Virus record (IMG/VR): IMGVR_UViG_3300023108_001523
Span: 1 to 26,597 of that record
Source: a virus
Reading direction: 5' to 3' (one strand)
DNA: 26,597 nucleotides
In this document: piece by piece, positions 4,074 to 25,133 of the stretch
Position numbering within the stretch: position 1 is the first letter of the stretch
Layout of the letters: every line of letters begins with the position of its first letter
The notes under the pieces: model-generated
Told to the model about the DNA's origin: nothing
Database searches by the model: none
Seen by the model: only the letters and a program-made list of their open reading frames with translations
Program-made: the position numbers and the translations under genes

Positions 4074-4078
4074 AAATT

Positions 4079-4086
4079 TATTTAGC
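4079..4086 (-). promoter_or_regulatory. T4-like late promoter (GCTAAATA) for the sulfotransferase
   Basis: Minus-strand GCTAAATA at 4086-4079 followed by five bases and then ATG at 4073. By T4 late-promoter geometry (-13 to -6) the first transcribed base would be the A of that ATG. No Shine-Dalgarno is present. The C in place of A at the second position departs from the T4 consensus TATAAATA. Confidence 0.5.
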
Positions 4087-4099
4087 AGTAATATACGCA

Positions 4100-4107
4100 T
4101 ATAAATA
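4100..4107 (+). promoter_or_regulatory. T4 late promoter (TATAAATA)
   Basis: An exact match to the T4 late -10 element, followed by CCAGT and then ATG at 4113. With the T4 spacing the +1 base is the A of the start codon, so the transcript would be leaderless. It is divergent from the late-like promoter at 4079-4086. Confidence 0.7.
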
Positions 4108-4112
4108 CCAGT

Positions 4113-4874: not shown

Positions 4875-5548
4875 TGAAAGTATTTGTAGGATATGACACA
4901 AGAGAAGATATAGCGTATCAAGTTTGTAAGCATAGTATTCTAAACAAGCAACCGGATGCAGATGTGCGTCCATTAAAACAGCAAGAACTAAGAGATGCAG
5001 GATGGTATACACGCAGTCTGGATAAACTTGCTAGTACAGAATTTACATTCACACGTTTTCTTATTCCTGAACTAACTAACTTTAAAGGTTGGGCATTGTT
5101 TATGGACTGCGATATGATCTTAACTACAGATATAAAAGAACTGTTTGATCAAGCAGACGACAAGTATGCAGTAATGTGTGTACAGCACGATTACACACCT
5201 AAAGAAGGCACAAAGATGGATGGACAAAAACAAACTATCTACCCACGTAAAAACTGGTCAAGTGTAATGTTGTTTAACTGTGCGCATCCTAGCAATGCAA
5301 AACTTACAATGGATCTAGTAAACGATCCAGAAATCAATGGAGCCTACTTGCACAGATTTAGTTGGTTAAAAGATGAAGAAATTGGAGAATTGGATCACAC
5401 TTGGAATTATCTTGTTGGTGTTTATGACGATGTAGAAATGCCAAAATTAATACATTATACTGAAGGAGGACCGTGGTTCGAAAACTATAGGAATTGCGAA
5501 TTTAGCAATCTATGGAAACAAGAACTAGCGGATATGATGAATGGGTAA
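4874..5548 (+). CDS. Glycosyltransferase, GT8-like
   Basis: 224 residues. MKVFVGYDTREDIAYQVCKH is the GT8 opening, with the aspartate that contacts the nucleotide. FTRFLIPEL (about 59-67) and ALFMDCDMILTTDIKEL carry the DxD metal site at 78-80. HYTEGGPWFENY near the C-terminus matches the family's HxxG-P segment. It should transfer a sugar from a UDP- or similar donor within the island's pathway. Starts at an ATG that shares a base with the preceding TAA stop, behind AGG in the upstream gene's end. Confidence 0.8.
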   Translation: MKVFVGYDTREDIAYQVCKHSILNKQPDADVRPLKQQELRDAGWYTRSLDKLASTEFTFTRFLIPELTNFKGWALFMDCDMILTTDIKELFDQADDKYAVMCVQHDYTPKEGTKMDGQKQTIYPRKNWSSVMLFNCAHPSNAKLTMDLVNDPEINGAYLHRFSWLKDEEIGELDHTWNYLVGVYDDVEMPKLIHYTEGGPWFENYRNCEFSNLWKQELADMMNG

Positions 5549-6362
5549 TAAAGTTGCAGCTATAGACAGTACTGGCGGTAATAATTATTTCAAAAAAGGT
5601 TGGGATTATGATCCTTACCTAACAGCTTTTCTAGAAGGAGTACCAGAGGAAAAGTTAGAATCAAATTGGGAAAACGAAGAAGAAACTGATCACACTCTTG
5701 TAATTAGAGGTTTAGGTGGTGGAAGTCAAAAGGCTATAAAAAGCTGTTGGGCATCTGGTAGAGAATTTTATGCTATAGATACAGGATATTTTGGTAATCA
5801 TATTAAGCATAAAATTTGGCATAGAATAACAAAAAACGCAGTTCAAAATATGGGACCTATTATTCCTAGGCCAGCTGACAGAATCAAATTATGTAATTAT
5901 GAATATAAACCTATTATGCCTGGCAGAAAGATAATGATATGTCCCCCAAGTGACAAAGTTATGAATTTATTTGGGCAAGGCACAGCAGAAGAATGGACAA
6001 CTAATATTGTAAAAGAAATAAAAAAACTTACTGATCGTCCAATTGAAATACGTATGAAACCTATTAGAGCAGAACGTGTAACTACAAACACAATACAAGA
6101 TGCTTTAGCAGATGACGTACATTGTTTAGTAACATACAATAGTATTGCTGCTACTGAAGCATTAATGGAGGGAAGAGCAGCAATTACATTAGGCCCTAAT
6201 TCGGCACAATTAGTGTGCGAAACAAAATTAGAAAATATAGAGAATCCAAAAGTTCCTGATAAAGATGAAATGATGGCATATATGTGCCATCTAAGTTATT
6301 GCCAGTTTACTGAAAGAGAAATGCGTAGTGGATTTGCTTGGAGAGTAATCAATGCAATGTAA
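5541..6362 (+). CDS. GT-B-like surface-polysaccharide protein, paralogue 1 of 3
   Basis: 273 residues. The C-terminal half holds IKKLTDRPIEIRMKPIR (about 155-171), then CLVTYNSIAATEALMEGRAAI (about 194-214) and a final QFTEREMRSGFAWRVI. The same three blocks, in the same order, occur in the genes at 6372 and 8142, so these three are paralogues. The pattern of a histidine/lysine-P-R block followed by an S-x-A-x-E-A-hydrophobic-G-P/R-A block resembles the nucleotide-binding half of GT-B glycosyltransferases and capsule-export-type proteins. No catalytic assignment is possible. Overlaps the previous gene by 8 bases. Confidence 0.6.
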   Translation: MGNKVAAIDSTGGNNYFKKGWDYDPYLTAFLEGVPEEKLESNWENEEETDHTLVIRGLGGGSQKAIKSCWASGREFYAIDTGYFGNHIKHKIWHRITKNAVQNMGPIIPRPADRIKLCNYEYKPIMPGRKIMICPPSDKVMNLFGQGTAEEWTTNIVKEIKKLTDRPIEIRMKPIRAERVTTNTIQDALADDVHCLVTYNSIAATEALMEGRAAITLGPNSAQLVCETKLENIENPKVPDKDEMMAYMCHLSYCQFTEREMRSGFAWRVINAM

Positions 6363-6371
6363 GGAAATAAA

Positions 6372-7304
6372 ATGAGCTTAAAAGTAGCATCTTATTTAAT
6401 GGGTATACCTCCAGGTAATACAAATCCAGAAAAGCCTAAAATTATTGTTAATTTTATAGAAGGTGTATGGCGGTGCGGAGATGAAGGTGAAATAGTTTGT
6501 GACTACGATCCAGTAGATTGCGATGTAGCAGTAGTGCAAGGTTTTGTTCACGAAAACAGTAAACGTAGTCCACATTTACAATTAAGGAAAAATGTATTTG
6601 AGAGACAAGAAAAACTTGGAAAACGTAGTATTATTGTAGACAGTAATTTATTCTTATATGCTGATCCTGGAAATTCAAATAAATTTTTACGTTATAGTTA
6701 TGATGGCATTTTTCCTGATACAGGTGAATACTGCAATGAAGTACCTGATCCTAAACGCTGGCAACTTATAAAAGACCGTCTTGGTATAAAAATGAAACCC
6801 TACAAATTCCACGGCGGCGACATTGTAATTTGCTGTCAAAGAGACGGTGGCTGGAGTATGAGAGGCAGTGCTTTAATGCCTTGGCTAGTCAAGACAATTA
6901 CACAGATAAGAAAAGTGAGTGATAGAAGAATTGTTGTAAGATTTCATCCTGGTGATAAAGGAGCACTAAATCATAAACGTATGTTGGTTAGATATAGATT
7001 ACCTAATGTTATTATAAGTAATCACGCAAACATATTATCCGATTTTGCAAATGCGCACTGTGTAATAAATTATAATAGCAGTCCGGCAGTTGCAGCAGCA
7101 ATAGAAGGAATACCTACTATTGTATTAGATCCTGCAAGAAGTCAGGCAGCAGAAGTGTCACATCATAAACTTGCTGAAATAGAAAATTTAAGAGAATTCG
7201 ATAGAGAAACGTGGATACATAAAATGGCACAAATGCATTGGACACTAGACGAATTAAAGGACGGAACAGCGTGGAGACATTTAAGAAAATGGGCCAAGAA
7301 ATAA
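6372..7304 (+). CDS. GT-B-like surface-polysaccharide protein, paralogue 2 of 3
   Basis: 310 residues, the longest of the three paralogues. Shared blocks: IRKVSDRRIVVRFHPGDKG (about 177-195), INYNSSPAVAAAIEGIPTIVLDP (about 233-255), and WTLDELKDGTAWRHLRKW at the C-terminus. The N-terminal part (CDVAVVQGFVHENSKRSPHLQLR, IIVDSNLFLY) looks like a first Rossmann domain that recognises an acceptor. AAGGAAATAAA just before the ATG provides a Shine-Dalgarno. Probably a glycosyltransferase or polysaccharide-modifying enzyme, role inferred only from fold-like blocks and context. Confidence 0.62.
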   Translation: MSLKVASYLMGIPPGNTNPEKPKIIVNFIEGVWRCGDEGEIVCDYDPVDCDVAVVQGFVHENSKRSPHLQLRKNVFERQEKLGKRSIIVDSNLFLYADPGNSNKFLRYSYDGIFPDTGEYCNEVPDPKRWQLIKDRLGIKMKPYKFHGGDIVICCQRDGGWSMRGSALMPWLVKTITQIRKVSDRRIVVRFHPGDKGALNHKRMLVRYRLPNVIISNHANILSDFANAHCVINYNSSPAVAAAIEGIPTIVLDPARSQAAEVSHHKLAEIENLREFDRETWIHKMAQMHWTLDELKDGTAWRHLRKWAKK

Positions 7305-8152
7305 TAGTAATAACAACCTTTCATCCAGAAGGAATGAAAGTATACGGACAACGTTTTATAGATAGTTTTGCTCAAAATGTTGCAAAAGGTATCAAATTAG
7401 TAGTTTATGCAGAGGATTGTATTCCAGTAAATCCTGATCCAAATCAAATTACTATACTCGATGCAAAACAAGAATTACCAAAACTAAATGCTTTTAAAGA
7501 GCGTTGGAAAGATGATCCTAAAGCAAATGGTATTCCGCCCGATCATATAAAAGCAAAACGTCCGCGAGACTGGCATAAAGATTTTAAATGGCACGCTATA
7601 CGTTTTGCAAATAAAACATATGCTGTATTTGATGCTTGTGCAAAAAACTACGGAACAGGTAGATGGATTGTTTGGATGGATGCAGACACATATATACATA
7701 GTCCTTGGAGCTTTAAACAGTTTGAAGAACTACTACCGTATAACAATTGGTTAACATATGTTGGCAGAGGTAAAGGATCACAAACTTGGCCTGAGTGTGG
7801 ATTCTACGGTATTAATATGAATCATCCTGTTGGTTGCAGTTTTGTAGAAGAATTTGAACGTATGTATGAAGATGCAGACAATGGTATCTTTACCCTAGAA
7901 GAATGGCACGACAGCTATGTGTTTGGAGAATTATTGAACAATGATTTTGCAGACTTCAAGGATACTGCATTAGATTACAGTGCTAACATATACAATAAAA
8001 CTGCCAAGACCGGCGGCGGAGGACATCCATTAATTAATAGCGCACTAGGTAAATGGATGGATCATATGAAAGGTGATCGAAAGTTCGAAGGGCATAGCAA
8101 AAAGAAAGACCTAATGGCAGAAAGAACAGAAGCTTATTGGAATGAAATTTAG
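7289..8152 (+). CDS. Glycosyltransferase (GT-A, DAD motif)
   Basis: 287 residues from the ATG at 7289, which overlaps the previous gene by 16 bases; an upstream in-frame TTG at 7238 would lie deeper in that gene and is less likely. EIIVITTFHPEGMKVYGQRFIDSF is a GT-A first strand. RWIVWMDADTYIHSPW (DAD at 131-133) is the metal and nucleotide-sugar site. PECGFYGINM is a probable acceptor-side loop, and the late GGGGHPLINS segment supplies a histidine expected near the active site. Role in glycan assembly is inferred from the motifs and the surrounding genes. Confidence 0.72.
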   Translation: MGQEIIVITTFHPEGMKVYGQRFIDSFAQNVAKGIKLVVYAEDCIPVNPDPNQITILDAKQELPKLNAFKERWKDDPKANGIPPDHIKAKRPRDWHKDFKWHAIRFANKTYAVFDACAKNYGTGRWIVWMDADTYIHSPWSFKQFEELLPYNNWLTYVGRGKGSQTWPECGFYGINMNHPVGCSFVEEFERMYEDADNGIFTLEEWHDSYVFGELLNNDFADFKDTALDYSANIYNKTAKTGGGGHPLINSALGKWMDHMKGDRKFEGHSKKKDLMAERTEAYWNEI

Positions 8153-8996
8153 TTTATGGACTGATTATGGTGCGCTTAATAGTAGACCAGTTTTTGATGC
8201 ATTTGCTTATAGTATTATGGGTGCTGGCCATAGTGTTTCTTATAACACTCGGGATTGTGATATTAATGTTATCTGGAGTGTTCTTTGGAATGGGAGAATG
8301 TCTAAGAACAAGTCAATCTGGGATGAGAGTATTGAAAAAAATAAACCAGTAATCGTACTTGAAGTAGGCGGCATACAACGAGGCACTACTTGGAAAGTAG
8401 GACTTAATGGTATAAACAAAGATGCATACTTTGGCGAATTGAACAATACTAACCATCGTGCCAGTGCGTTTGGAATGAGTTTGAAACCTTGGCGCAAAGA
8501 TGGAGAATACATACTTATTTGCGGACAACATAACAAGAGTTTACAATGGCAAAATATGCCTAGTATGAGTAATTGGTTCTTGGATACATATGACCAAATA
8601 CGTAAATATACTGATAGGCCTATAATATTCCGTCCGCATCCTAGATGTAGACTAGAACACATAGAACGTGGATTACGAAATGTGATAAGGCAAGAGCCAA
8701 AGCACATTACAGGTACATACGATAACTTTGATATGGAATTTGATAACGTTTGGGCTACTATAAGTCATAGTAGTAATCCAGGATGCCAGTCTATTCTTGC
8801 TGGTGTTCCTGCATTTGTAAGTCCTTCTTCTCTTGCCTATGATGTAGGCAATAACATAGAATTCATACACGATATAGAAAATCCTGTAATGCCAGATAGG
8901 ATACAATGGCGTAACGATTATGCCTGGACTGAATTTACAATAGAAGAAATTAAACACGGTTTACCACTTAATAGATTGACATCTAGGATATTTTAA
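8142..8996 (+). CDS. GT-B-like surface-polysaccharide protein, paralogue 3 of 3
   Basis: 284 residues. It shares IRKYTDRPIIFRPHPRCR (about 150-167), ISHSSNPGCQSILAGVPAFVSP (about 206-227) and a C-terminal EFTIEEIKHGLPLNRL with the genes at 5541 and 6372. The third block keeps its position but loses the AWR core. EYILICGQHNKSLQW begins the second Rossmann domain. Starts inside the previous gene (11-base overlap) and is the last gene of the island. Between its end and the next gene lies a near-consensus sigma-70-type promoter. Confidence 0.6.
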   Translation: MKFSLWTDYGALNSRPVFDAFAYSIMGAGHSVSYNTRDCDINVIWSVLWNGRMSKNKSIWDESIEKNKPVIVLEVGGIQRGTTWKVGLNGINKDAYFGELNNTNHRASAFGMSLKPWRKDGEYILICGQHNKSLQWQNMPSMSNWFLDTYDQIRKYTDRPIIFRPHPRCRLEHIERGLRNVIRQEPKHITGTYDNFDMEFDNVWATISHSSNPGCQSILAGVPAFVSPSSLAYDVGNNIEFIHDIENPVMPDRIQWRNDYAWTEFTIEEIKHGLPLNRLTSRIF

Positions 8997-9010: not shown

Positions 9011-10162
9011 ATGAATAATATAGCTACAATAGAAGATTTACTAGAACTATCAGCAGGACTTATACAAGGACCAGAAATTTCTCTTGATAACTCTGATATA
9101 ACAATAATGCACAGTATTGCTAGGCAGGTATTCAAAGGTACAGCATTAACAGATAGACAGTTTATGTTAATGCAAGAAAAACTTGAAAAATACAAAACAC
9201 AATTTGTAAATTTAGATTGCGACTTTGATTATGCTGTAAAAGAGCTTAGACAACCTTTAAGAGAAATAGATCGAAGCAAATACATAAAGATAGTCGGTGA
9301 CGAAATAAAAATTAGATTTCCATTTAGAAAATCAGAAATAATGGAGATTAATAGTATCAGCTATCAGTGTGATGATTATAGGCACAGCAAAGGTACGCAC
9401 GAGCATTGGTTCGGATATACAGAAAGAAACGTGCTTGCTATATTAGACAGCTTTTCTAATAAAAGTTTTGAAGTTGATAAAGAACTTTTAAATTTGTATG
9501 ATGAATTATGTGCTATTAGGGAACACCCAGAAAATCATTTAAGTGGACTTTTTGACGGCAAGCTATTGAATGTACACAAAAACCTAGAACCTTATATTAC
9601 AAACAAAAACAAAATAAATTTGATAGATAAAAAATTCAAATACGGATTTTCTTTTGTAGGAGAAATACAACCCACCACACTAGAAGAAAAAATTGCTACT
9701 AGAGCAAGGCCTACGTATGTAAGTAAGCCTTCTGTTGAAACTAATAGTCAAATTTTTCAAGCTTTGTGGAATTTAGATAGATTTCCTATAATTGTATTAC
9801 TTGAAGAAAAATCTGCAGAAGTACAGCTTTATGAGTGTATTAGCTACTTTAGAGATATTTTAGAGCCTGAACAACAAAGTGTACTGTTTAGACAAGAAGG
9901 CCAAGACTCAAGTTTTAATCAATTAATACACGATAGAAAGTTGAACAATTGGGTTGACAAGACAACAAAAATAGTGTATATTAGTACTAATAAACTTCCG
10001 AAGTTGTTAGTCAACAACGAATGGATACCTACAACTGCATTCTGCTATAATAGTAGAATAGATCGTTTTGTTGACAGTTATGTTACACATAACTGTGACT
10101 TAGTTGTATATAGAGAAGAGGATATAAGTCCAATAAGAAAGTATTCAAGATACTATGGCTAG
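9011..10162 (+). CDS. Conserved marine T4-like phage protein next to UvsW, unknown function
   Basis: 383 residues. Recognisable only as a protein type I recall beside uvsW in marine T4-like phages: ITIMHSIARQVFKGTALTDRQ (about 30-50), ELRQPLREIDRSKYIK (about 78-93), KGTHEHWFGYTE (about 125-136), RFPIIVLLEEKSA (about 258-270), and TKIVYISTNKLPK (about 317-329). The alternating hydrophobic strands in the second half (IIVLLEE, KIVYIST, DLVVYREED) could be a degenerate P-loop or helicase-like fold, but I see no Walker A. It is probably co-transcribed with uvsW, whose ATG lies inside its last codons. Function in replication or repair is inference from context. Confidence 0.8.
   Translation: MNNIATIEDLLELSAGLIQGPEISLDNSDITIMHSIARQVFKGTALTDRQFMLMQEKLEKYKTQFVNLDCDFDYAVKELRQPLREIDRSKYIKIVGDEIKIRFPFRKSEIMEINSISYQCDDYRHSKGTHEHWFGYTERNVLAILDSFSNKSFEVDKELLNLYDELCAIREHPENHLSGLFDGKLLNVHKNLEPYITNKNKINLIDKKFKYGFSFVGEIQPTTLEEKIATRARPTYVSKPSVETNSQIFQALWNLDRFPIIVLLEEKSAEVQLYECISYFRDILEPEQQSVLFRQEGQDSSFNQLIHDRKLNNWVDKTTKIVYISTNKLPKLLVNNEWIPTTAFCYNSRIDRFVDSYVTHNCDLVVYREEDISPIRKYSRYYG
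9954..9982 (+). promoter_or_regulatory. Possible internal sigma-70-like promoter ahead of uvsW
   Basis: TTGACA at 9954-9959, 17-base spacer, TATATT at 9977-9982, inside the coding region of the 9011 gene and about 170 bases before uvsW. Good match, but AT-rich coding sequence can produce such matches by chance. Confidence 0.35.
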
Positions 10163-11618
10163 TTGCAAATTAATAATTGAAGACGAAGTAAACATCAAGC
10201 TAGAAGGATTAGAAGTTGACGTCCGTCGAAAGCTTTCTAATGCCCTCAAGTTTGAAGTGCCTTACGCACGTTATATGCCACAGTATAAACTAGGACGTTG
10301 GGACGGCAAGGTTGCTTTCTTTGGTATTGGCGGTACTGGCTACGTTAATCATCTTGATACTATTACACAAGTACTTGCTAAAAACAACGTCCAAATAGTT
10401 GACATCGAAGATAGACGTCATCCTATACAACTAGACTTGCAACCAATTACGGAACGCTATTGGGCAGACCAAGGTGTTCATTGGCCCAAAGGTCATCCGG
10501 CAGAAGGTGAAGAAATTATTCTGCGTGACTACCAAGTCGAAGCAATCAACAACTTTCTAAAAAACCCACAGAGCTTGCAAGAGATTGCAACAGGTGCAGG
10601 TAAAACTATTACAACTGCAACACTGTCACATATAAGTGAGCCGTACGGACGTAGTCTTGTAATTGTGCCTAACAAATCACTTGTTACACAAACAGAAGAA
10701 GACTACATTAATTGTGGGTTAGACGTAGGGGTGTACTTCGGAGACAGAAAAGAGTTAGGTAAGACTCACACTATATGCACTTGGCAGAGCTTGAATATTC
10801 TGGATAAGAAGTTCAAAGACGGCAGTGCAGTACTAAGCCTTGCAGAGTTCTTAGAAGGTGTAAGCACTATTATTGTTGACGAAGTACACCAAGCGAAAGC
10901 AGAAGTTCTTAAAAACTTGCTTACACGTAACCTACGCAATGCACCAATACGTTGGGGACTAACTGGTACAGTACCTAAAGAACGTTTTGAGTTTGAAAGC
11001 ATACACGCAAGTCTTGGTCCGGTTATTGGACAAATCAGTGCTAAAGAATTACAAGACAAAGGTGTGCTATCGCAGTGTCACGTAAACATTGTACAACTAA
11101 TGGACACTGTAGCACACAGCAATTATCAAGAAGAATTAAAATATCTAGTTACAAATAAAGATAGAATAGAATATATAGGCAAACTACTTAATACAGTAAA
11201 AGAATCAGGCAACACTCTAATACTTGTAGATCGTATTTCAGCAGGAGAAGCACTACAAGAACTTATACCAGGAAGTGTATTTGTAAAAGGCGATGTAAAA
11301 TTAAAGGACAGAAAGGAAGCATATGACGAAATTAACGAAGGAACAAATCACGTGGTCATTGCTACGTATGGCGTTGCTGCCGTCGGCATTAATATCCCTC
11401 GTATTTTTAATCTTGTTCTTATAGAACCAGGCAAGTCATTTGTAAGAGTAATCCAATCAATAGGTAGAGGCGTTAGAAAGGCAAAGGACAAAGACTTCGT
11501 GCAAATATGGGATCTTACAAGCACTTGTAAGTTTGCGAAGCGGCACCTTACCCAAAGAAAGAAATTTTATAAGGAGGCGCAGTACCCATTCACAATAGAA
11601 AAAGTGGATTGGAATTAA
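10155..11618 (+). CDS. uvsW: UvsW-type SF2 DNA/RNA helicase
   Basis: 487 residues, close to T4 UvsW (about 500). An N-terminal non-helicase domain (1-115) contains YMPQYKLGRWDGKVAFF, the small UvsW-specific domain. Then come the SF2 motifs: RDYQVEAINNFL (Q-like), EIATGAGKTITTATL with Walker A (ATGAGKT at 145-151), IIVDEVHQAKA (DEVH at 242-245), WGLTGTVPKER (motif III), and VIQSIGRGVRKAKD (motif VI arginines). UvsW branch-migrates recombination intermediates and unwinds R-loops, switching T4 from origin-dependent to recombination-dependent replication. The ATG overlaps the previous gene by 8 bases. Confidence 0.95.
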   Translation: MASCKLIIEDEVNIKLEGLEVDVRRKLSNALKFEVPYARYMPQYKLGRWDGKVAFFGIGGTGYVNHLDTITQVLAKNNVQIVDIEDRRHPIQLDLQPITERYWADQGVHWPKGHPAEGEEIILRDYQVEAINNFLKNPQSLQEIATGAGKTITTATLSHISEPYGRSLVIVPNKSLVTQTEEDYINCGLDVGVYFGDRKELGKTHTICTWQSLNILDKKFKDGSAVLSLAEFLEGVSTIIVDEVHQAKAEVLKNLLTRNLRNAPIRWGLTGTVPKERFEFESIHASLGPVIGQISAKELQDKGVLSQCHVNIVQLMDTVAHSNYQEELKYLVTNKDRIEYIGKLLNTVKESGNTLILVDRISAGEALQELIPGSVFVKGDVKLKDRKEAYDEINEGTNHVVIATYGVAAVGINIPRIFNLVLIEPGKSFVRVIQSIGRGVRKAKDKDFVQIWDLTSTCKFAKRHLTQRKKFYKEAQYPFTIEKVDWN

Positions 11619-12765: not shown

Positions 12766-13009
12766 AGCACTAATATACGAACGTGTAGATGGTGTTGTAT
12801 ATGCTCGTTATAGAGATGCTCCGCATAATTTAATACCAAGATGGATTGTAGGCGGAGATCCAGGAGCGGTTTCTAGAGCCCAAGGCAATCTAATACACTA
12901 CGGCGAATGGCAAAATTTATGTGACCTATGTGAAGAAAATGAAACATTAAAAAAACAAATGGATAAGCTGGTTACAACATATTGGTTAATAAAGGATACT
13001 AAAGAATGA
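12731..13009 (+). CDS. Small conserved hypothetical protein
   Basis: About 92 residues from GTG at 12731 (an upstream TTG at 12680 would give 109 and a larger overlap with the cupin gene). ALIYERVDGVVYARYRDAPH (about 13-32) and RWIVGGDP look like a small mixed alpha/beta domain, followed by a charged helix (ENETLKKQMDKLVTTYWL) that may be a short coiled coil. No function recognised. Its stop overlaps the kdsA start by 4 bases, so it is coupled to the KDO genes. Confidence 0.55.
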   Translation: MERKLGNLKPNEALIYERVDGVVYARYRDAPHNLIPRWIVGGDPGAVSRAQGNLIHYGEWQNLCDLCEENETLKKQMDKLVTTYWLIKDTKE

Positions 13010-13791
13010 AAATTATTGCAGGCCCTTGTCAACACGAGACACTAGAACAAAGTTTAGAGATTGCACAGGAATGTAAACGTGTATGTGATAAGCTAGGTAT
13101 TGAATATTATTTCAAAGCAAGTTTTGACAAAGCAAACCGAACAAGTATTACAGGTGTACGTGGAGTAGGTCTTGCTAAGACAATGCAAGACTTTCGAAGT
13201 ATGAAAGAACAAATCAAAGGTTTAAAAACTTTGACAGACGTCCACGACACAGGACAGATTGTAACTCTGAATGCCTGGGGAGATGCAGTAGATGTGTACC
13301 AAATTCCTGCTTTTTTATGTCGCCAAACCGACTTGATACAAACAGCTTGTAGCAGCGGAAAAATTGTAAATATCAAAAAAGGACAATTTTTAGCACCTTG
13401 GGATGTTGAAGGTATATTGAGTAAGTGCTACGGTGCAAGCAAAGATAAGCCTGAAATTTGGATTACAGAGAGAGGAACTAGTTTTGGATATAATACTTTG
13501 GTTGTTGATTTCACCGGCATTAACTATATGCTTGATAACTTTGATTGTGATGTGGTTTTGGATGCCACGCACAGTGTACAAAAGCCAGGTGGCAACGGAA
13601 GTAGTAGCGGCGGGAATAGGAATTATGTTCCTGGCTTATGTCGTGCAGGTAGTGCTTTGGGTGTTAGGAATTTCTTTTTAGAGGTTCACGCTGACCCAGA
13701 CAATGCACCAAGTGACGGACCTAATATGTTACGACTAGAAGACTTTGAAAGGACAGTGCGTGAAATTATCAGCTATTCTTATACCGGCTAG
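13006..13791 (+). CDS. kdsA: 3-deoxy-8-phosphooctulonate synthase (KDO-8-phosphate synthase)
   Basis: 261 residues (E. coli KdsA is 284). Condenses phosphoenolpyruvate with arabinose-5-phosphate to make KDO-8-phosphate for LPS inner core. The family signatures are nearly intact: IAGPCQHE at 4-11, FKASFDKANRTS (about 36-47), TDVHDTGQI, VYQIPAFLCRQTDLI (about 96-110), VNIKKGQFLAPWDV, TERGTSFGYNTLVVD (about 154-168), DATHSVQKPGG (about 186-196), and HADPDNAPSDGPNML near the end. The stop lies 32 bases inside kdsB. The KDO-8-P phosphatase is not seen in this window. Confidence 0.96.
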   Translation: MKIIAGPCQHETLEQSLEIAQECKRVCDKLGIEYYFKASFDKANRTSITGVRGVGLAKTMQDFRSMKEQIKGLKTLTDVHDTGQIVTLNAWGDAVDVYQIPAFLCRQTDLIQTACSSGKIVNIKKGQFLAPWDVEGILSKCYGASKDKPEIWITERGTSFGYNTLVVDFTGINYMLDNFDCDVVLDATHSVQKPGGNGSSSGGNRNYVPGLCRAGSALGVRNFFLEVHADPDNAPSDGPNMLRLEDFERTVREIISYSYTG

Positions 13792-14452
13792 ATACGGAAG
13801 CACTCGCTTCCCAGGAAAGCCGCTTACAATGCTAAACGGCAAAACAATGATACAAACTGTAGCAGAAAAATGTAAAGATTTTGGCTATGATACATATGTA
13901 CTCACAGACCATAAGCTAATTGCACAGGCAGCACAAGCATCAGGCGTAGGCGTTTATATAGATACTTCTGATTACGAAAACGGCACAGAAAGATGTGCAG
14001 GTGCAGTATACAGTCGCAAGTTTGACGATTATGATTATTTTATTAATGTACAAGGTGATATGCCAGACGTAACACAAGAGATGGTTGAAAAGTGTGAATT
14101 CAGTCTAGGCAATCACTATCAAGTTAGCACAGTGTACACAGATATGCCAGAAGAAAAACAAAACGATCCTAGCTCAGTAAAAATGGTACGTGGCGGAGAC
14201 TCTGCACTATGGTTTGGTAGAGGTATGACGGGTTACGGTTTATGGCACTTGGGTGTATATGGTTACACTAAGAATGCACTGCAATGCTACAACCATATGC
14301 GTATTGAAAAAGAAGAACGTGTTGAAAAATTAGAACAACTGCGTTGGTTAAAAAACGGTTGGCAAATTGGTTGTTTGAGTGTACAATTTAATGGTACTGA
14401 GATTAATACTCCTGAAGATGTAGAGACGTGGAATGCCCAACAAACACATTGA
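13760..14452 (+). CDS. kdsB: CMP-KDO synthetase (3-deoxy-manno-octulosonate cytidylyltransferase)
   Basis: 230 residues from GTG at 13760, with AAAGGA (13748-13753) at good spacing. It activates KDO with CTP before transfer to lipid A. ILIPARYGSTRFPGKPL at the N-terminus is the nucleotide-binding loop. YVLTDH, NGTERCAGA (family SGTDR) and FINVQGDMPDV (family VQGDEP) follow. The methionine in GDMP instead of GDEP is unusual, while the metal-binding aspartate is kept. EINTPEDVE near the C-terminus is the expected closing motif. Paired and overlapping with kdsA. Confidence 0.93.
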   Translation: MKLSAILIPARYGSTRFPGKPLTMLNGKTMIQTVAEKCKDFGYDTYVLTDHKLIAQAAQASGVGVYIDTSDYENGTERCAGAVYSRKFDDYDYFINVQGDMPDVTQEMVEKCEFSLGNHYQVSTVYTDMPEEKQNDPSSVKMVRGGDSALWFGRGMTGYGLWHLGVYGYTKNALQCYNHMRIEKEERVEKLEQLRWLKNGWQIGCLSVQFNGTEINTPEDVETWNAQQTH

Positions 14453-17038: not shown

Positions 17039-17441
17039 TTGGAAAAAGCCTACTGCGCAAATGCTGGGCAGATGGCAACCGTGGCACGATGGTCACACAG
17101 CACTATTTAAAAAAGCACTATTAGAAACAGGTCAAGTATGTATTATGATTCGAGATGTCGGAGGTATTGTAGGTCAAGATGCTGGCGGCGGCCGCACAGT
17201 AAAGCAAGATGATAACCCGTTTGATGTGGAAACAGTAACACAGAATATTGTACAAGGATTAGCAAATCAAGGCTTTACAGAAGGCGAAGAATATGTTATA
17301 ATGTTTGTACCAAACATAGTTGACATTAGTTATGGTCGCGGCGTAGGTTATACATTTACACAACACGACTTGGGTGAAGAGATACACAATATTAGTGCAA
17401 CACAGATAAGAGCACAGTTGAGAGAAGAAGGCAAGTTATGA
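17028..17441 (+). CDS. Nucleotidyltransferase (HxGH superfamily)
   Basis: 137 residues. GRWQPWHDGHTALFKKAL (14-31) is the HxGH nucleotide-binding motif. YVIMFVPNIVDISYGRGVGY is a substrate-side segment. HNISATQIRAQLREEGKL closes the protein with the ISxTxIR motif shared by NMN, phosphopantetheine and glycerol-phosphate nucleotidyltransferases. It could act in NAD salvage, in activating a sugar alcohol, or with the adjacent kinase; the true substrate cannot be seen. GGAG nine bases before the ATG, and a small overlap with DUF2061. Confidence 0.82.
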   Translation: MSFDWKKPTAQMLGRWQPWHDGHTALFKKALLETGQVCIMIRDVGGIVGQDAGGGRTVKQDDNPFDVETVTQNIVQGLANQGFTEGEEYVIMFVPNIVDISYGRGVGYTFTQHDLGEEIHNISATQIRAQLREEGKL

Positions 17442-17935
17442 ATTTAGTTTACTATCCAGATCCGTTTTTAGACAAGCAAGTTGCAGAAGTTGATTTAGAA
17501 AACCCTACATTTGACCCTGCTGAACTAAAAAAAGAAATGGTAGACTTAATGTTATCTAGTAATGGTATTGGCCTGAGCGCAAATCAAGTTGGTTTAGATG
17601 CACAAGTATTTGTTATGGGCGACAGCTTAGAGAATAGTACTATTTGTATTAATCCAACTGTTCTACAGTATACATCAGAAACTATTTTAGATGTTGAAGG
17701 ATGTCTAAGCTTTCCTAATATTTTTGTCAAAGTAAAACGTCCAAAAGAAATACTTGCAAAATGGTACAATGAGAATTTAGAAGAACAGGTTGTAAAAATT
17801 GAAGGGTATAGTGCAAAATGTTACTTACACGAATGGGATCATTTACACGGCATAACGTTTAAAGATCGTGTATCAAAAATAAAATGGGATATGGCTACAA
17901 AAAAAGCACGTAAATTGGAGAAGCATCTTGCCTGA
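17438..17935 (+). CDS. def: Peptide deformylase
   Basis: 165 residues. All three metalloenzyme motifs are present: GIGLSANQVG (43-52, family GxGLAAxQ), EGCLSFP (87-93, metal ligand C89) and HEWDHLHG (131-138, metal ligands H131 and H135, catalytic E132; family HExDH). Removes the formyl group from nascent protein N-termini; marine phages carry such genes probably to speed maturation of phage or photosystem proteins. It starts four bases before the end of the previous gene. Its end overlaps the TTG start of the next gene. Confidence 0.96.
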   Translation: MNLVYYPDPFLDKQVAEVDLENPTFDPAELKKEMVDLMLSSNGIGLSANQVGLDAQVFVMGDSLENSTICINPTVLQYTSETILDVEGCLSFPNIFVKVKRPKEILAKWYNENLEEQVVKIEGYSAKCYLHEWDHLHGITFKDRVSKIKWDMATKKARKLEKHLA

Positions 17936-18488
17936 TATTGATATCGACTTTGCAGATCGCAGTGTTATACTAGACAAGATACAACACCGTGTGGCAAAAT
18001 TAGATACAGATAAGAAACACAATACAGGAATTTATGTAACAGAAATTCCACATAATCCTATTGACAACTTATCAACAATCGAACATAAAACAGCAGAAGA
18101 TAGAGGCTATTTTAAATTAGATTTTTTAAATGTAAGCATTTATAAAAACGTTAAGAGTAACGAACATCTACAACAACTTATGGATAAGGAACCATTATGG
18201 GATTTATTAACAGAGCCAGAATTCAGCAACAACTTATTTCACGTAGGCGAACACAGTACAATTCTACAGCAAACGAAACCCAAATCAGTAGAACAACTAG
18301 CAGCAGTCCTAGCGATGATACGTCCTGCGAAGAGGCATCTTGTCAACGAAACTTGGCAAACGATACTAACAGAAGTTTGGAAAAAACCCGAAGACGGTAG
18401 CTATTACTTTAAGAAAGCACACGCAATAAGTTACGCAATGGCTGTAGTAATACATATGAATTTATTGTGTGAAGAATTTACTACTTAG
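17928..18488 (+). CDS. Miniature DnaE-like (C-family polymerase palm) protein
   Basis: 186 residues starting at TTG 17928, with GGAG eight bases upstream and overlapping the deformylase stop. The protein begins exactly at MPDIDIDFADR, the DnaE motif with two catalytic aspartates (D3, D5). KHNTGIYV (30-37) corresponds to DnaE KHAGGVVI. GYFKLDFLNV (60-69) carries the third catalytic aspartate (D65). SVEQLAAVLAMIRPAKRHL (120-138) and FKKAHAISYAMAV (161-173) match DnaE landmarks. The PHP domain, the glycine-serine-rich loop and most of the fingers are absent. It is conserved in marine T4-like phages as I recall. Function unknown: a minimal polymerase, or a regulator using a palm fold. Confidence 0.85.
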   Translation: MPDIDIDFADRSVILDKIQHRVAKLDTDKKHNTGIYVTEIPHNPIDNLSTIEHKTAEDRGYFKLDFLNVSIYKNVKSNEHLQQLMDKEPLWDLLTEPEFSNNLFHVGEHSTILQQTKPKSVEQLAAVLAMIRPAKRHLVNETWQTILTEVWKKPEDGSYYFKKAHAISYAMAVVIHMNLLCEEFTT

Positions 18489-18849
18489 GTTTTCTTACTA
18501 GCTGTACACTTCTGCGCTTTACACGCTTTACAGCTAAATTATTGAGATTAACAACAGGTCCAATTGTTATCTTAACATCTTTAGAGTTCATTGTAACTAT
18601 AGAATATTTAAATTGGTCCATTTCTTTTCTTAGAAATATATTAATAGGAATGAGTCTATTTGACTCCCACCACCATATATCTCCTAATTCTAAAAATTGA
18701 CTTTGTTCTTTTTTTGATTTTAAATCTGTGTAAACATACATTGATGTTACTGTTTGATCCTGATTAATGATGATACCGATATATTCGTTACCCCCATAAG
18801 TAACCACACTTAAGAACGGAAAATTTTCTTGTATATCTTTTGTTAACAT
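18481..18849 (-). CDS. Conserved hypothetical protein, minus strand
   Basis: 122 residues. FPFLSVVTYGGNEYIGIIINQ and FLELGDIWWWESNRLIPINIFL are distinctive. The C-terminus is basic (LAVKRVKRRSVQLVRKPK), suggesting nucleic-acid or phosphate binding. I recall similar proteins with the WWWESNR block in marine T4-like phages but no function. Its stop overlaps the convergent mini-DnaE stop by 8 bases. Its start diverges from the virion protein gene. No clear promoter or strong ribosome site is visible ahead of its ATG. Confidence 0.78.
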   Translation of the reverse strand: MLTKDIQENFPFLSVVTYGGNEYIGIIINQDQTVTSMYVYTDLKSKKEQSQFLELGDIWWWESNRLIPINIFLRKEMDQFKYSIVTMNSKDVKITIGPVVNLNNLAVKRVKRRSVQLVRKPK

Positions 18850-19690: not shown

Positions 19691-20692
19691 ATGAGTGTAG
19701 TAGCCGAATCAGTTCTGACATACCTGCCTGCTAAGAGGAAACAAACTCCTAGCGGCTGGCTATCATTCAATGCGCCCTGTTGCCATCACAACGGCCACTC
19801 AGCTGATAATAGAGGCCGAGGAGGACTAATAAGCAATCCTGACGGAGGTGTAAGTTATCATTGTTTTAACTGTGGTTTCAAAGCCTCGTGGCAACCTGGG
19901 CGTAACTTTTCACACAAGATGCGAAGGCTCTATCAATGGATGGGAGCGCCTGACGATATAATCAACAAGGTGGCACTTGATGTGATGCGAGAGAACGAGG
20001 GCGTTGAAGCACTAGAACGTATTGCTCAACTGCCCACGTTCGACTCTGTACCGTTGCCAGAAGATGCTGTTAGACTTGCAGACTATCAATGGGCAGAGCC
20101 AGGTACTATACCAGAGCGTATGGTAAATGTGTTTCAGTATATGCTAGAACGCAATCTACGTATAGACGACATTGACTATCATTGGTCACCTAGTTTAGGT
20201 TATCGTGATAGGCTTATTATTCCTTTCTATTATGAAGGTAGAATAGTAGGCTGGACTGCTCGTGCTATCACACCAGATAAGAAGCCTAAATACTTAACAG
20301 AAGTGCAACCTGGCTATGTGTTTAACCTAGACGAACAACGACATAACAAAGTATTTGCTATTGTTTGCGAAGGACAAATAGATGCACTACACGTAGAAGG
20401 ATGTGCGCTAGGAGGCAGTGAAATATCTGACCAACAATCACTGCTGCTAAATAAGCTACAGAAGGAAATAATTGTTGTACCTGATAGAGACAAAGCTGGC
20501 AGCAAATTAGTAGAGCAAGCTATTGAACTAGGATATTCTGTTTCAATGCCTGAATGGGCAGATGATATTAACGATATAGGAGATGCAGTACAACGTTATG
20601 GTAGATTGTATACGTTACATAGTATTGCTACACAATCAGAAGAGTCGCCTTTGAAAATAAGACTGAGAGCAAAAAAATGGTTCACAAAATAA
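19691..20692 (+). CDS. gp61: DNA primase (T4 gp61-like)
   Basis: 333 residues, matching T4 gp61 (342). An N-terminal zinc-binding domain has candidate ligands in CCHHNGHS (30-37) and YHCFNCGFKAS (57-67). The TOPRIM-type core follows: FAIVCEGQIDALHVEG (acid E in VCEGQ) and IIVVPDRDKAGSKLVEQA (DxD). It synthesises RNA primers for lagging-strand replication in complex with the gp41 helicase encoded three genes downstream at 21990. Preceded by a consensus promoter with no leader, so it is likely an early gene. Confidence 0.92.
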   Translation: MSVVAESVLTYLPAKRKQTPSGWLSFNAPCCHHNGHSADNRGRGGLISNPDGGVSYHCFNCGFKASWQPGRNFSHKMRRLYQWMGAPDDIINKVALDVMRENEGVEALERIAQLPTFDSVPLPEDAVRLADYQWAEPGTIPERMVNVFQYMLERNLRIDDIDYHWSPSLGYRDRLIIPFYYEGRIVGWTARAITPDKKPKYLTEVQPGYVFNLDEQRHNKVFAIVCEGQIDALHVEGCALGGSEISDQQSLLLNKLQKEIIVVPDRDKAGSKLVEQAIELGYSVSMPEWADDINDIGDAVQRYGRLYTLHSIATQSEESPLKIRLRAKKWFTK

Positions 20693-20814: not shown

Positions 20815-21017
20815 TAGAAAACTTAGGACCATACCAAGTATTAAGTTACTATACTCAAACGTTCTCTACGCCTAAAGTAGATACAGAAATTCACGTGCGT
20901 CATATCAAAGAAAGAGGACAAACAAGAGTTGAAGAAGTTGTCTTTACTTCCTACAATTCAAAAGGTCAAGAAGTAAAACATAATCCACATATGCCAAAGG
21001 TAGATATTATTGTATGA
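20811..21017 (+). CDS. Small conserved hypothetical protein (68 aa)
   Basis: 68 residues with beta-strand periodicity (TEIHVRHIKERGQTRVEEVVFTSYNSKG). No motif recognised. It is coupled at both ends by four-base overlaps (ATGA) with the 45-residue protein and the carbamoyltransferase, so it belongs to the primase transcript. Confidence 0.68.
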   Translation: MIENLGPYQVLSYYTQTFSTPKVDTEIHVRHIKERGQTRVEEVVFTSYNSKGQEVKHNPHMPKVDIIV

Positions 21018-21982
21018 TTATTTGGGGAATGGTTGGTAACAGTCACGATGCTAGCCTAGGAATTTTTAAAGGTGACAAACTGCTATGGGCAAGTCTATCA
21101 AAAGATTTCTCAGGCATTGCTAATGACCCTAATCATAATAAAGAACAGATTGCATATGCCCTAGACAAATACGGAGTACCTGAGCAAGTTATATGGTACG
21201 AACGTCCCCTATTAAAAACACTACGTCAGCTGTATGCAGGCCAGGGTTGGTTACTTAAAGAAAATAATATACGTAGTTATCTAAAGCAATATAATATATG
21301 TTGTCCCATTTTGTATACCCAACACCATCTTTCACACGCTGCTTATGCTTATTACACTCAGCCCTATGACGATTGTGCTGTTATATGCTTAGACAGTATT
21401 GGAGAATTTGAGACCCTGACCATATGGCACGGCAAGAACAATCGACTTAAGAAGATACATTCACAAGGGTATCCACATAGCCTAGGACTTTTCTACAGTG
21501 CTATGACACAACGTATGGGGTTACAAGCACAACGTGACGAATATCTAGTGGCACAGTATGCAGAAAAAGGTAGCAAAGAAAGACTGTTCAAAGTAATGTG
21601 GGATGAGATTATATCAATGCAAGGCTTAGGTGTAGACCCTAAAGTTACCCTACACGAAAATTTACACAGGGGATGCAATTGGTGGCGTCCTGGGTTGTGT
21701 AGCCAGCAGGATATATACGATATAGCAGCAACCACCCAAGCAATATTTGAGTACTGTTTAATGAACCTAAGTGAATGGGCTCGCAAAGAAACAGGTAGCT
21801 CTAACATAGCATTAGCAGGTGGCGGCGCACTTAATAGACAGGCAGTTGAAAAAATTAAACCACGTTGGAATAATGTATGGGTTCCTACTAATCCTGGTGA
21901 TCCGGGATCGTGTATCGGTGCAGTATTAGCAAAGACAAAACAAAAAACAACACTTGACAATATATGGTATCAGAAAGTATAA
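21014..21982 (+). CDS. Carbamoyltransferase (NodU/CmcH family), N-terminal domain only
   Basis: 322 residues, about half of typical NodU/CmcH proteins (550-600). The ASKHA/Kae1-like fold motifs are visible: WGMVGNSHDASLGIF (4-18), TQHHLSHAAYAYYTQPYDDCAVICLDSIGE (about 99-128, metal-binding HxxxH), SLGLFYSAMTQRMG, and NIALAGGGALNRQAVEKI (about 265-282). It should use carbamoyl phosphate and ATP to make a carbamoyl adenylate and carbamoylate a sugar or nucleoside. The C-terminal domain is missing, with the next gene's promoter starting in its last codons. Host glycan decoration or DNA modification are both possible targets. Confidence 0.85.
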   Translation: MIIWGMVGNSHDASLGIFKGDKLLWASLSKDFSGIANDPNHNKEQIAYALDKYGVPEQVIWYERPLLKTLRQLYAGQGWLLKENNIRSYLKQYNICCPILYTQHHLSHAAYAYYTQPYDDCAVICLDSIGEFETLTIWHGKNNRLKKIHSQGYPHSLGLFYSAMTQRMGLQAQRDEYLVAQYAEKGSKERLFKVMWDEIISMQGLGVDPKVTLHENLHRGCNWWRPGLCSQQDIYDIAATTQAIFEYCLMNLSEWARKETGSSNIALAGGGALNRQAVEKIKPRWNNVWVPTNPGDPGSCIGAVLAKTKQKTTLDNIWYQKV

Positions 21983-21983
21983 T
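21954..21983 (+). promoter_or_regulatory. Sigma-70-like promoter fused to the gp41 start codon
   Basis: TTGACA (21954-21959), 18-base spacer, TATAAT (21978-21983), then six bases and ATG at 21990. Same six-base -10 to ATG distance as at 9011 and 19691. The promoter overlaps the final codons of the carbamoyltransferase gene. No Shine-Dalgarno is present. Confidence 0.8.
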
Positions 21984-21989
21984 TACAAT

Positions 21990-23417
21990 ATGACAAGACA
22001 AAATACAGATTACGGTTATGATATACAAAAAGTATATCTTGAAATGATGTTAACAGATGCAGAGTCGTTTGTTCGCTGTCAGGCTGTGTTTAATCCAGAC
22101 ACGTTTGACCGAAAGTTGCAAGCACCTGCAAAATTTTTAAATGATTATGTAACAGAACATAATGCACTTCCTACATTTGAAATGATTAATGCTGCTACAG
22201 ACAGCAACTTAAAAGACCCAGGGCAACTACAGGAGAATCATTATGACTGGCTACTTCAGGAGTTTGAAACATTCTCCAGACACAAGGCTTTGGAAGCGGC
22301 CATCCTTACTAGCGCAGATCTGTTGGAAAAAGGGGAGTATGGTCCGGTTGAGGATTTGGTTAAGAAAGCAGTACAGATTGGTTTGCAAAAAGATCTAGGT
22401 ACAGACTACTTTGCAGATCCTAGAAGTAGACTAGAAGCAATCAAAGACAAAAACGGACAAGTAAGCACAGGTTGGCCGGCACTAGATAAGAAACTGTTTG
22501 GTGGCTTTAACAGAGGTGAGCTTAATATCTTTGCAGGTGGTTCAGGTTCGGGTAAGAGTTTGTTCTTGGCTAACTTGGGCGTGAACTGGGCACTAGCAGG
22601 TATGAACGTAATTTACTTGACATTTGAGCTTTCAGAGAATCTAGTTAGTATGCGGCTTGATTCAATGACTACAGATATTCCAAGTCGTGATGTTTTTAAG
22701 AGCATTGACGATGTTGAAATGAAAGTAAAGATGATTGGCAAAAAGTCAGGTGCATTCCAGGTCAAGTATATGCCCACTGGCAAGAACGCAAATGACATTA
22801 GAAGTTATTTGAAAGAATATGAGATCAAAACAGGCAAGAAGGTAGACGTATTGCTTGTAGACTATTTGGACTTGATGCATCCGATAGCAGCTAAGATTAG
22901 TGCAGAGAACTTGTTTGTTAAAGACAAGTATGTGTCAGAAGAACTACGTAACTTGGCTATGGAACTGAACTGTTTGTTTGTAACAGCATCGCAGTTGAAC
23001 AGGAGTTCGGTTGAAGAGATTGAGTTTGATCATTCGCATATCTCAGGTGGTATTTCAAAGATCAATACAGCAGATAACTTAATCGGTATCTTTACAAGTA
23101 GAGCAATGCGTGAACGTGGACGCTATCAAATACAGCTAATGAAGACTAGAAGTTCAAGTGGCGTTGGACAAAAGATCGACTTAGAGTTTGATGTAGACAG
23201 TTTGCGTATTAGAGACTTAGGAGAGGATGAAGAGTATCAAGAGTTTAACAAACGTAAGTCAACCGTGTTTGATCAAATCAAACGCAGTAGTGGCGCACCT
23301 ATAGAAGAAGGACAACAACGAGAAGATCCAACTGAGGGTGATACTGTAGGTAAAATACGTGCCCAAACAGATTCAACAAAACTAAGACAATTTCTCAATA
23401 ATTTAGGAGACGAATAA
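21990..23417 (+). CDS. gp41: DnaB-like replicative helicase (T4 gp41-like)
   Basis: 475 residues from the ATG at 21990 (T4 gp41 is 475). An upstream TTG at 21954 is in frame but lies in the promoter -35, so it is rejected. N-terminal helical domain 1-130, then GWPALDKKLFGGFNRGELNIFAGGSGSGKSLFLANL, including Walker A GGSGSGKS at 183-190, VDVLLVDYLDLMH (Walker B, about 285-297), LFVTASQLNRSS (about 331-342), and an arginine-rich MRERGRYQIQLMKTR. The hexamer unwinds the replication fork 5'-3' and partners with the primase. The C-terminal tail is acidic and polar. Confidence 0.94.
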   Translation: MTRQNTDYGYDIQKVYLEMMLTDAESFVRCQAVFNPDTFDRKLQAPAKFLNDYVTEHNALPTFEMINAATDSNLKDPGQLQENHYDWLLQEFETFSRHKALEAAILTSADLLEKGEYGPVEDLVKKAVQIGLQKDLGTDYFADPRSRLEAIKDKNGQVSTGWPALDKKLFGGFNRGELNIFAGGSGSGKSLFLANLGVNWALAGMNVIYLTFELSENLVSMRLDSMTTDIPSRDVFKSIDDVEMKVKMIGKKSGAFQVKYMPTGKNANDIRSYLKEYEIKTGKKVDVLLVDYLDLMHPIAAKISAENLFVKDKYVSEELRNLAMELNCLFVTASQLNRSSVEEIEFDHSHISGGISKINTADNLIGIFTSRAMRERGRYQIQLMKTRSSSGVGQKIDLEFDVDSLRIRDLGEDEEYQEFNKRKSTVFDQIKRSSGAPIEEGQQREDPTEGDTVGKIRAQTDSTKLRQFLNNLGDE

Positions 23418-23486: not shown

Positions 23487-25133
23487 ATGGCAACAGATTT
23501 AGAAAACATACAAAGGCTATTAGATAGATTTATTAGGCCTGTCCCACCCGGACCCGAATATCAAAATCGTCTGGCAGAAGAATTTGAGCTCATCCTGAAC
23601 CAGCGTTTCACTGATTACTTCCTTCAAATTTGTGACATCATTGACCTAACCCAAGACCTTACTCATATGACTAGAGGTTCGGCGGGTTCAAGTCTTGTGT
23701 GCTACTTGTTGGGTATTACAGATGTAGACCCAATTGAGTGGAACATACCTGTGGCACGGTTTATGAATCCTTTAAGGGACGACCTGCCCGATGTTGATAT
23801 AGACTTTGAACATTGGCGTCAAACAGAAGTAATGGAACGCATTTTCAAAAAGTGGCCAGGCAAAACGGCAAGGTTAAGCAATTACGTGACCTATAAGGAG
23901 AAGTCAGCCCGCCGAGAAGCTGCAAAGCGACTCGGAGCCACAGGTAATTTACCACGCAACTTTACATATGAATCAGTAGGAGTTGATCCTACAGAAGCGA
24001 AGCGTATAGAACGCAAGCTCATAGGCAAGAAGCGAGCAATATCAAAACACTGTGGAGGCATCGTAATGTTCACTAGGCAATTACCTAAATCACTAATATC
24101 ACAAGACAACCAAATACTACTTGACAAACACGAAGTAGAAGACCTTGAACACCTCAAGGTAGACATACTTGCAAACCGTGGACTATCACAACTACTAGAG
24201 ATAGATCCTGACACTGCATTGGCGGATTATCCTGCATACGACGACCGTACAGCAGCCTTACTAGCTAGAGGCGATGTACTAGGCGTAACACAAGGAGAAA
24301 GCCCTGCTATGCGTAGATTATTTAGAGCTATACAACCTACGTCAGTATATGACTGTGTGTTTGCAACAGCAATGATAAGACCAGTTGCTATGAGCGGCAG
24401 ACAAAAGGCCGCAGTATTTCAAGACTGGTCACAAGAAGCAGTACAAGACTCGATAGTATTCGAAGACGATGCTATTGATATTATATCAAACATTATCGGC
24501 GTTGATATGTATGAAGCTGATATGTATAGGAGAGCATTTGCTAAAAAGAACGATGAAAAGATACTTGAATTTGTTGAAAGGCTGGGCAACAACCCACGCA
24601 AAGCAGAAGCTATGGCAGCCCTGCAAGAACTCAGCGGCTTTGGTTTATGCAGAGCTCACGCAGTTAATCTTGGACGGCTCATATGGGCCTTGGCCTACTG
24701 CAAAGCACACAAACCAGAAGAATTCTGGAGAGCAAATCTCCGACACTGTCAAGGCTCCTACAAACCGTGGGTATATCAATGCGAAGCGCATCGCAAAGGA
24801 ATAGACACCAAACCAGGATGGTGGCAACAGGGATTTATTCCCGGCTGCGGAGTAAGATCAAACTTCCTTGAACGTGTGGACTTTGCAGGTGTTATTGCCA
24901 ATGGTAGAGTATTCCGTGGTCGTGGCAATCGTTGGGTAACATTCCTTACATTGGGCACCGACTACGGTGAATACATAGACGTAACAATACAACGTCCGTT
25001 TGCATATCGTGACGGAGATGTAGTTGTAGGTTCAGGTTCGATACGCCATTCAAACAATTCAGACTACATACAGTGTACAGATCAAAAACTTTATACACTG
25101 GGAGAATGGTACAAACGTGTTGAGAACGATTAA
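23487..25133 (+). CDS. DnaE-like C-family DNA polymerase core without PHP domain
   Basis: 548 residues; bacterial DnaE is about 1,160. TRGSAGSSLVCYLLGITDVDP (62-82) matches the glycine-serine loop of DnaE. LPDVDIDF (100-107) carries the two catalytic aspartates (D102, D104; E. coli D401/D403). SKHCGGIVMFT (186-196) matches KHAGG. EHLKVDILANRGL (221-233) has the third aspartate D226 (E. coli D555). RAIQPTSVYDCVFATAMIRPV, MYRRAFAKKNDEKI and CRAHAVNLGRLIWALAYCKAHKPEEFW follow the DnaE fingers order. GNRWVTFLTLGTDYGEYIDVTI (480-501) looks like the OB fold. The N-terminal PHP domain is absent. AAGAGG ahead of the ATG. Confidence 0.88.
   Translation: MATDLENIQRLLDRFIRPVPPGPEYQNRLAEEFELILNQRFTDYFLQICDIIDLTQDLTHMTRGSAGSSLVCYLLGITDVDPIEWNIPVARFMNPLRDDLPDVDIDFEHWRQTEVMERIFKKWPGKTARLSNYVTYKEKSARREAAKRLGATGNLPRNFTYESVGVDPTEAKRIERKLIGKKRAISKHCGGIVMFTRQLPKSLISQDNQILLDKHEVEDLEHLKVDILANRGLSQLLEIDPDTALADYPAYDDRTAALLARGDVLGVTQGESPAMRRLFRAIQPTSVYDCVFATAMIRPVAMSGRQKAAVFQDWSQEAVQDSIVFEDDAIDIISNIIGVDMYEADMYRRAFAKKNDEKILEFVERLGNNPRKAEAMAALQELSGFGLCRAHAVNLGRLIWALAYCKAHKPEEFWRANLRHCQGSYKPWVYQCEAHRKGIDTKPGWWQQGFIPGCGVRSNFLERVDFAGVIANGRVFRGRGNRWVTFLTLGTDYGEYIDVTIQRPFAYRDGDVVVGSGSIRHSNNSDYIQCTDQKLYTLGEWYKRVEND

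Follow-up and report, generated by a model that had tools for sequence, protein, structure and literature searches.

Genes in the window

The DNA analysed, called the window below, is a 26,597-base IMG/VR virus record, a fragment from a marine giant phage. Its features are collected in Table 1. The ORF under study starts with ATG and its 548-residue product is referred to as P. The first-pass annotation of the window had placed P directly after gp41, and the gp41 gene does stop 70 bp upstream of the P start. Two C-family-like proteins of unequal completeness had also been proposed for this one window; both were confirmed, the larger (P) with conserved catalytic residues. The smaller, the product of the ORF at 17928, is referred to as C and opens at PDIDIDF, so that it was correctly described as being without the RGS loop.

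By sequence, C fits the definition of the C-half of the split minimal Pol III alpha, an enzyme that Iyer et al. (2021, PMC7824862) have already described for group 2.2 jumbo phages. Below, N denotes the separate RGS-loop half (phrog_11127) and PolB a B-family polymerase (PF00136). N proteins stop shortly past their GRGSS loop, just ahead of the point where C starts. The family of C, phrog_11778, matched 63 phage records, and 57 of the 60 matches listed were in records of at least 284 kb. A structure model of the C-half matched Pol III alpha weakly (best E 2.4e-3). From uvsW the window runs on to C, the short convergent ORF, a structural protein gene, primase and gp41, an order that it shares with PAC2, 121Q, CBB and RaK2 according to their annotations. 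The short ORF convergent to C is conserved in exactly this position, across a range that extends from RaK2-like phages as far as marine contigs. A peptide deformylase gene (17438-17935) overlaps the start of the C gene by 8 bases at its 3' end, and a Nol-like carbamoyltransferase gene (21014-21982) lies between primase and gp41, as it does in most but not all related loci.

The remainder of the window includes a block of the sugar- or surface-modification type (1469-8996) with glycosyltransferases of families 25 and 8, an FkbM methyltransferase, a sulfotransferase and a cytidylyltransferase fused to a mannose-6-phosphate isomerase C-terminal domain. At 13006-14452 the gene for a protein of the DAHP synthase I family precedes that for a CTP_transf_3 cytidylyltransferase, and the two look like a phage-borne pair of KDO-8-P synthase and CMP-KDO synthetase, names that we infer.

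Table 1. Positions of P, its motifs and the neighbouring replication genes in the window.
Feature	Position	Strand	Evidence
UvsW helicase, upstream border of conserved replication block	10155..11618	+	synteny
C: half of split minimal Pol III alpha that binds Mg and template (C-terminal), phrog_11778	17928..18488	+	PHROG 5.9e-63, alignment
Conserved short ORF after C, convergent, phrog_11637, no function given	18481..18849	-	PHROG, synteny
Primase, gp61/DnaG-like	19691..20692	+	Pfam, PHROG
Replicative helicase, gp41/DnaB-like, direct neighbour of P	21954..23417	+	Pfam, PHROG
P: C-family (Pol III alpha-like) DNA polymerase, PHP-less, one chain, 548 aa	23487..25133	+	Pfam, PHROG, AlphaFold model
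RGSAGSS phosphate/NTP loop, P residues 63-69	23673..23693	+	R63 G64 S65 S68 S69 invariant, 30 sequences
PDVDIDF, P residues 101-107, catalytic Asp pair D102, D104	23787..23807	+	alignment
KVDIL, P residues 224-228, third catalytic Asp D226	24156..24170	+	alignment
MIRPV fingers landmark, R298 P299	24372..24386	+	alignment
OB fold, C-terminal, P residues 460-540	24864..25106	+	model, SSB/PriB-like, Z up to 8.8

Fold and active site of P

P belongs to the C-family (Pol III alpha) polymerases. It has a Pol-beta-like palm, a thumb, fingers and, at its C-terminus, an OB fold, but no PHP domain. It matched DNA_pol3_alpha (E 3.9e-43) and DNA_pol3_finger (PF17657, E 8.2e-15) in Pfam and phrog_405, 'DNA polymerase', in PHROG (1.6e-68). 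At a threshold of E 0.001 its sequence matches in the PDB were Pol III alpha structures only (9 distinct sequences, best 9.8e-34). An AlphaFold model built from 30 relatives had a pLDDT of 79.6 and a pTM of 0.78, with residues 304-324 poorly modelled, and its residues 1-445 superimposed on residues 312-842 of the Pol III alpha structure 5lew with Z 31.2 and an rmsd of 4.7 over 425 aligned residues. No PHP domain was found in P by Pfam or in the modelled fold, and alignments to other alphas begin past the PHP domain. As the model alignment starts from residue 312 of 5lew, P begins where PHP ends and keeps palm, thumb, fingers and OB. The tandem HhH/clamp-binding region is probably absent as well: P gave no Pfam HhH match, about 15 residues separate fingers from OB in the model and no conserved C-terminal motif was seen.

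The Pfam matches, alignment and model together bear out the first-pass description of a large ORF with an RGSAGSS loop, a DVD pair, a third aspartate, fingers landmarks, an OB-like end and no PHP. Further motifs are HCGG (188-191) and CRAHA (388-392). In alignment with E. coli DnaE the catalytic aspartate columns match, the DnaE residues being 401, 403 and 555. Loss of catalytic residues from most homologues of the large protein had been named as an outcome that would count against the annotation; no such loss was found. The RGSA, PD.DID and third-aspartate columns are invariant in 85/85 near-full-length P sequences (more than about 500 aligned residues, with the window and W01, a 484-kb record described below, included and a few contigs present twice), and R63, G64, S65, S68, S69, D102, D104, D226, R298, P299 and H391 are invariant in 30/30 diverse P sequences. 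The dN/dS of P, against six relatives over 541 codons, was 0.060-0.096, and purifying selection on P, as read from these codons, is strong.

Occurrence of P, C, N and PolB

P belongs to a wide marine jumbo-phage family that often adjoins gp41. With the alignment as scan query at least 570 relatives of P were found, and with the P of W01 alone as query none. In 171 loci chosen because gp41 (more than 400 aa matched) and P were both visible, a set that shows the position of P rather than its frequency and in which some loci share a contig, P lay downstream of gp41 in 169 (111 on the same strand, 58 on the opposite) and upstream in 2, with gaps of 13 to 5,001 bases. The linkage is not universal: one clade, whose identity to the P of the window is about 56% (L312, L316, L323, L348, L368, L379 and others), has no gp41 nearby, and in contig G081 P and gp41 are about 40 kb apart. 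C was present in all 34 P-carrying loci that showed both uvsW and gp41. A pattern scan of 84,980 species genomes for a cellular origin of P, with a reach limited to close relatives, found no relative.

The main co-occurrence set comprised 33 records, each searched with the four families. All 12 long C-bearing records, namely the named phages W02-W11 and the IMG/VR contigs G011 and G013 (about 236 kb each), contain C, N and PolB, and none of them contains P. A second PF07733 match in CBB (W06) was weak (E 5.8e-4), contained three stops and fell below the cut-off, and was not counted as P. W01 (LR756508, 484 kb) contains P and pieces of a B-family polymerase, and the family searches gave neither a separate N nor a separate C in it. 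Ten P-carrying contigs of 42-155 kb had C in 10/10, N in 0/10 and PolB in 0/10. Ten other C-bearing contigs (G012, G014-G022) had no N, P or PolB in their sequenced part; from G012 (262 kb) it is precisely the N-PolB region that is missing. Beyond the main set, 19 more P-carrying contigs of up to 183 kb gave a separate C in 6 and no N or PolB, 16 more gave no N or PolB, and another 6 gave no N. N was thus found in 0/51 P-carrying contigs by PF07733 search (10+6+19+16) and PolB in 0/45 P-carrying IMG/VR contigs of up to 183 kb, the contigs compared stopping short of the N-PolB region in both cases. None of the records searched showed N alongside P.

These zeros must be read against the genome map. 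The synteny of G011 and G013 implies a circle of about 348 kb in which C is followed downstream, after about 122 kb, by N and then, about 28 kb further along, by PolB; in G011, gp41 is at 66 kb, N at 183 kb and PolB at 211 kb. When the P-carrying contigs G001, G077, G096, G097 and G098 were compared with G011, none extended into the N-PolB region, and the absence of N and PolB from P-carrying contigs is therefore uninformative. Among N-carrying contigs PolB was present in 10/18, while C (0/38) and P (0/18) gave zeros that are likewise uninformative. As to whether gp43 is encoded, the window has none, and the B-family polymerase is in W02-W11, G011, G013 and W01.

A gp41 tree of 62 rows placed 10 P-minus rows inside P-plus clades, and at least 4 changes of P state are forced by its starred branches; L098 was too short and was dropped, leaving 10 of 11 P-minus rows. 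The P-minus rows were drawn through the C query, so that all of them have C by construction. An ancestral P that was then lost several times would be the simplest history, the change count alone being compatible with gain as well as loss. A palm tree of 256 columns resolved three separate clades, one of P (10 rows), one of the split pairs (9) and one of PHP-bearing alphas (6), whose long branches meet; 7 of the 9 C-half ORFs carried extra N-terminal residues, and there was no DnaE2 row. P nests in neither the split group nor the PHP-bearing alphas. Given the three clades, P does not look like N and C fused back together, or like a recent paralogue of the split genes.

Role of P and comparison with known polymerases

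From the gene, its fold, the conserved residues and the distribution we infer, at a probability of roughly 0.6, that P is a standalone accessory polymerase, probably active as one chain, beside a B-family replicase and gp41. A single chain of P would provide the whole active site, with RGS loop, DxD pair and third aspartate, and P would need no C protein, the partner of C being the separate N-half. Most likely P assists the B-family replicase of the phage by short-range synthesis at or behind the fork, alongside the T4-like helicase gp41, whether to extend primers, to fill gaps or to bypass lesions. The missing PHP domain implies that P lacks built-in proofreading and a PHP-bound exonuclease; given the complete C-family active site, no PHP-linked exonuclease and probably no clamp region, single-chain short-range synthesis is the best-supported activity. 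The absence of P from close relatives and the presence of P with PolB in W01 suggest the accessory role, and its absence from all 12 long records with N, C and PolB, together with repeated loss as the simplest reading of the gp41 tree, indicates that P is dispensable. The evidence for an accessory role is that of distribution, and the close linkage of P to gp41 would be compatible with a replicase as well.

Since PolB was found in none of the 45 P-carrying contigs, P could be the replicase there, though the five compared contigs miss the N-PolB region. P would then have replaced the B-family gp43 as main replicase of the P-carrying marine phages, with C, with or without N, as a remnant or helper, and the short distance between P and the helicase gene gp41 in the 171 loci would fit. 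This is considered unlikely because the PolB gene of relatives is close to N and distant from gp41, in a region that the compared contigs do not reach, because W01 has both P and PolB, because close relatives with PolB such as G011 have no P and because P has no PHP domain and no evident clamp-binding region.

P might instead be a lesion-bypass polymerase specifically, of the DnaE2 kind. Inactivation of the PHP domain in DnaE2, with few exceptions, is described in PMC12926913, and P has neither PHP nor an exonuclease of its own; it nests in no group of the palm tree, however, a tree without a DnaE2 row, and this narrower assignment is rather doubtful.

The first-pass annotation had suggested that P and C might work as two subunits or else that one might be a translesion polymerase and the other a regulator. 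A single heteromeric polymerase, in which P gives C its missing RGS loop or replaces N, would be consistent with the constant presence of C where uvsW and gp41 are visible, with the failure to find N and P in one record (the compared P-carrying contigs do not cover the N-PolB region) and with the Asp triad, which by alignment C retains in P-carrying phages. The retained triad suggests that the N-half, or a substitute doing its job, is still present. P has a complete triad of its own, however, and the RGS-loop half of C is a third protein, N, in 12/12 long P-less records; with a dedicated N in relatives, P as supplier of the loop is possible but unneeded. The two families also proved to be distributed independently, the outcome that had been named as counting against the proposal: W01 has P without C, and P-minus lineages with C lie within P-plus clades. 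The pairing of P with C is thus improbable. Similarly hard to credit is a more radical scheme in which P displaced both gp43 and the N-half; the replicase of a T4-type replisome (gp41, gp61, UvsW) would then be a C-family enzyme without PHP, and the orphaned C-half would remain as its partner or regulator. That P is an inactive regulator, for which nothing but the missing PHP domain speaks, is very improbable given the invariant catalytic residues and the low dN/dS.

If the backbone is as in relatives, a phage carrying P as a standalone accessory polymerase would have three polymerases, since it would add P, a C-family enzyme of one chain without PHP, to a B-family replicase and to the C-family enzyme that is split over two genes. 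Such a series would be a natural one in which to ask how small a working Pol III alpha can be and why a T4-like replisome would recruit one, and at 548 residues P is a handy, compact C-family polymerase for expression and testing. The split halves, PF07733 in marine jumbo phages and short Pol III alphas in other phages are already known; the open-licence literature searched did not describe, for phages bearing the C-half, a Pol III alpha that is a single chain, lacks PHP and is linked to gp41. P shares the Pfam domain PF07733 with the marine jumbo-phage cluster PGC_A, 51.9% of which has it according to Weinheimer and Aylward (2022, PMC9123017).

P resembles the Pol III alphas of bacteria and phages in its order of palm, thumb, fingers and OB and in having all catalytic motifs. 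Unlike them (E. coli DnaE, 1160 aa; phages Ss1, 931, Mildred21, 1095, and billy, 1035 aa) it has 548 residues and no PHP domain, and the short stretch between fingers and OB in the model would leave no room for a tandem HhH/beta-binding domain. Other short forms, known from weak or partial matches, also seem PHP-less when judged by their length or by the geometry of the profile match: phrog_11165 (782 aa), phrog_21652 (476 aa) and BFVD viral Pol III alphas of 525-606 aa (for example those of Cellulophaga phage phiST and Bacillus phage G). In BFVD, Corynebacterium phage P1201 (A7IYC9/A7IYD0) and Pseudomonas phage PA5 (A0A1J0MHX0/A0A1J0MHX4) each have two Pol III alpha pieces, and split alphas may thus have arisen elsewhere too. 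With the split alpha of Iyer et al., P has in common the C-family palm, RGS loop and Asp triad, the lack of PHP and its occurrence in jumbo phages that are T4-like and encode a B-family polymerase. It differs in uniting RGS loop and Asp triad in a single chain, in having a thumb, fuller fingers and an OB fold, in forming a separate clade and in being absent from the 12 long records that hold the split pair.
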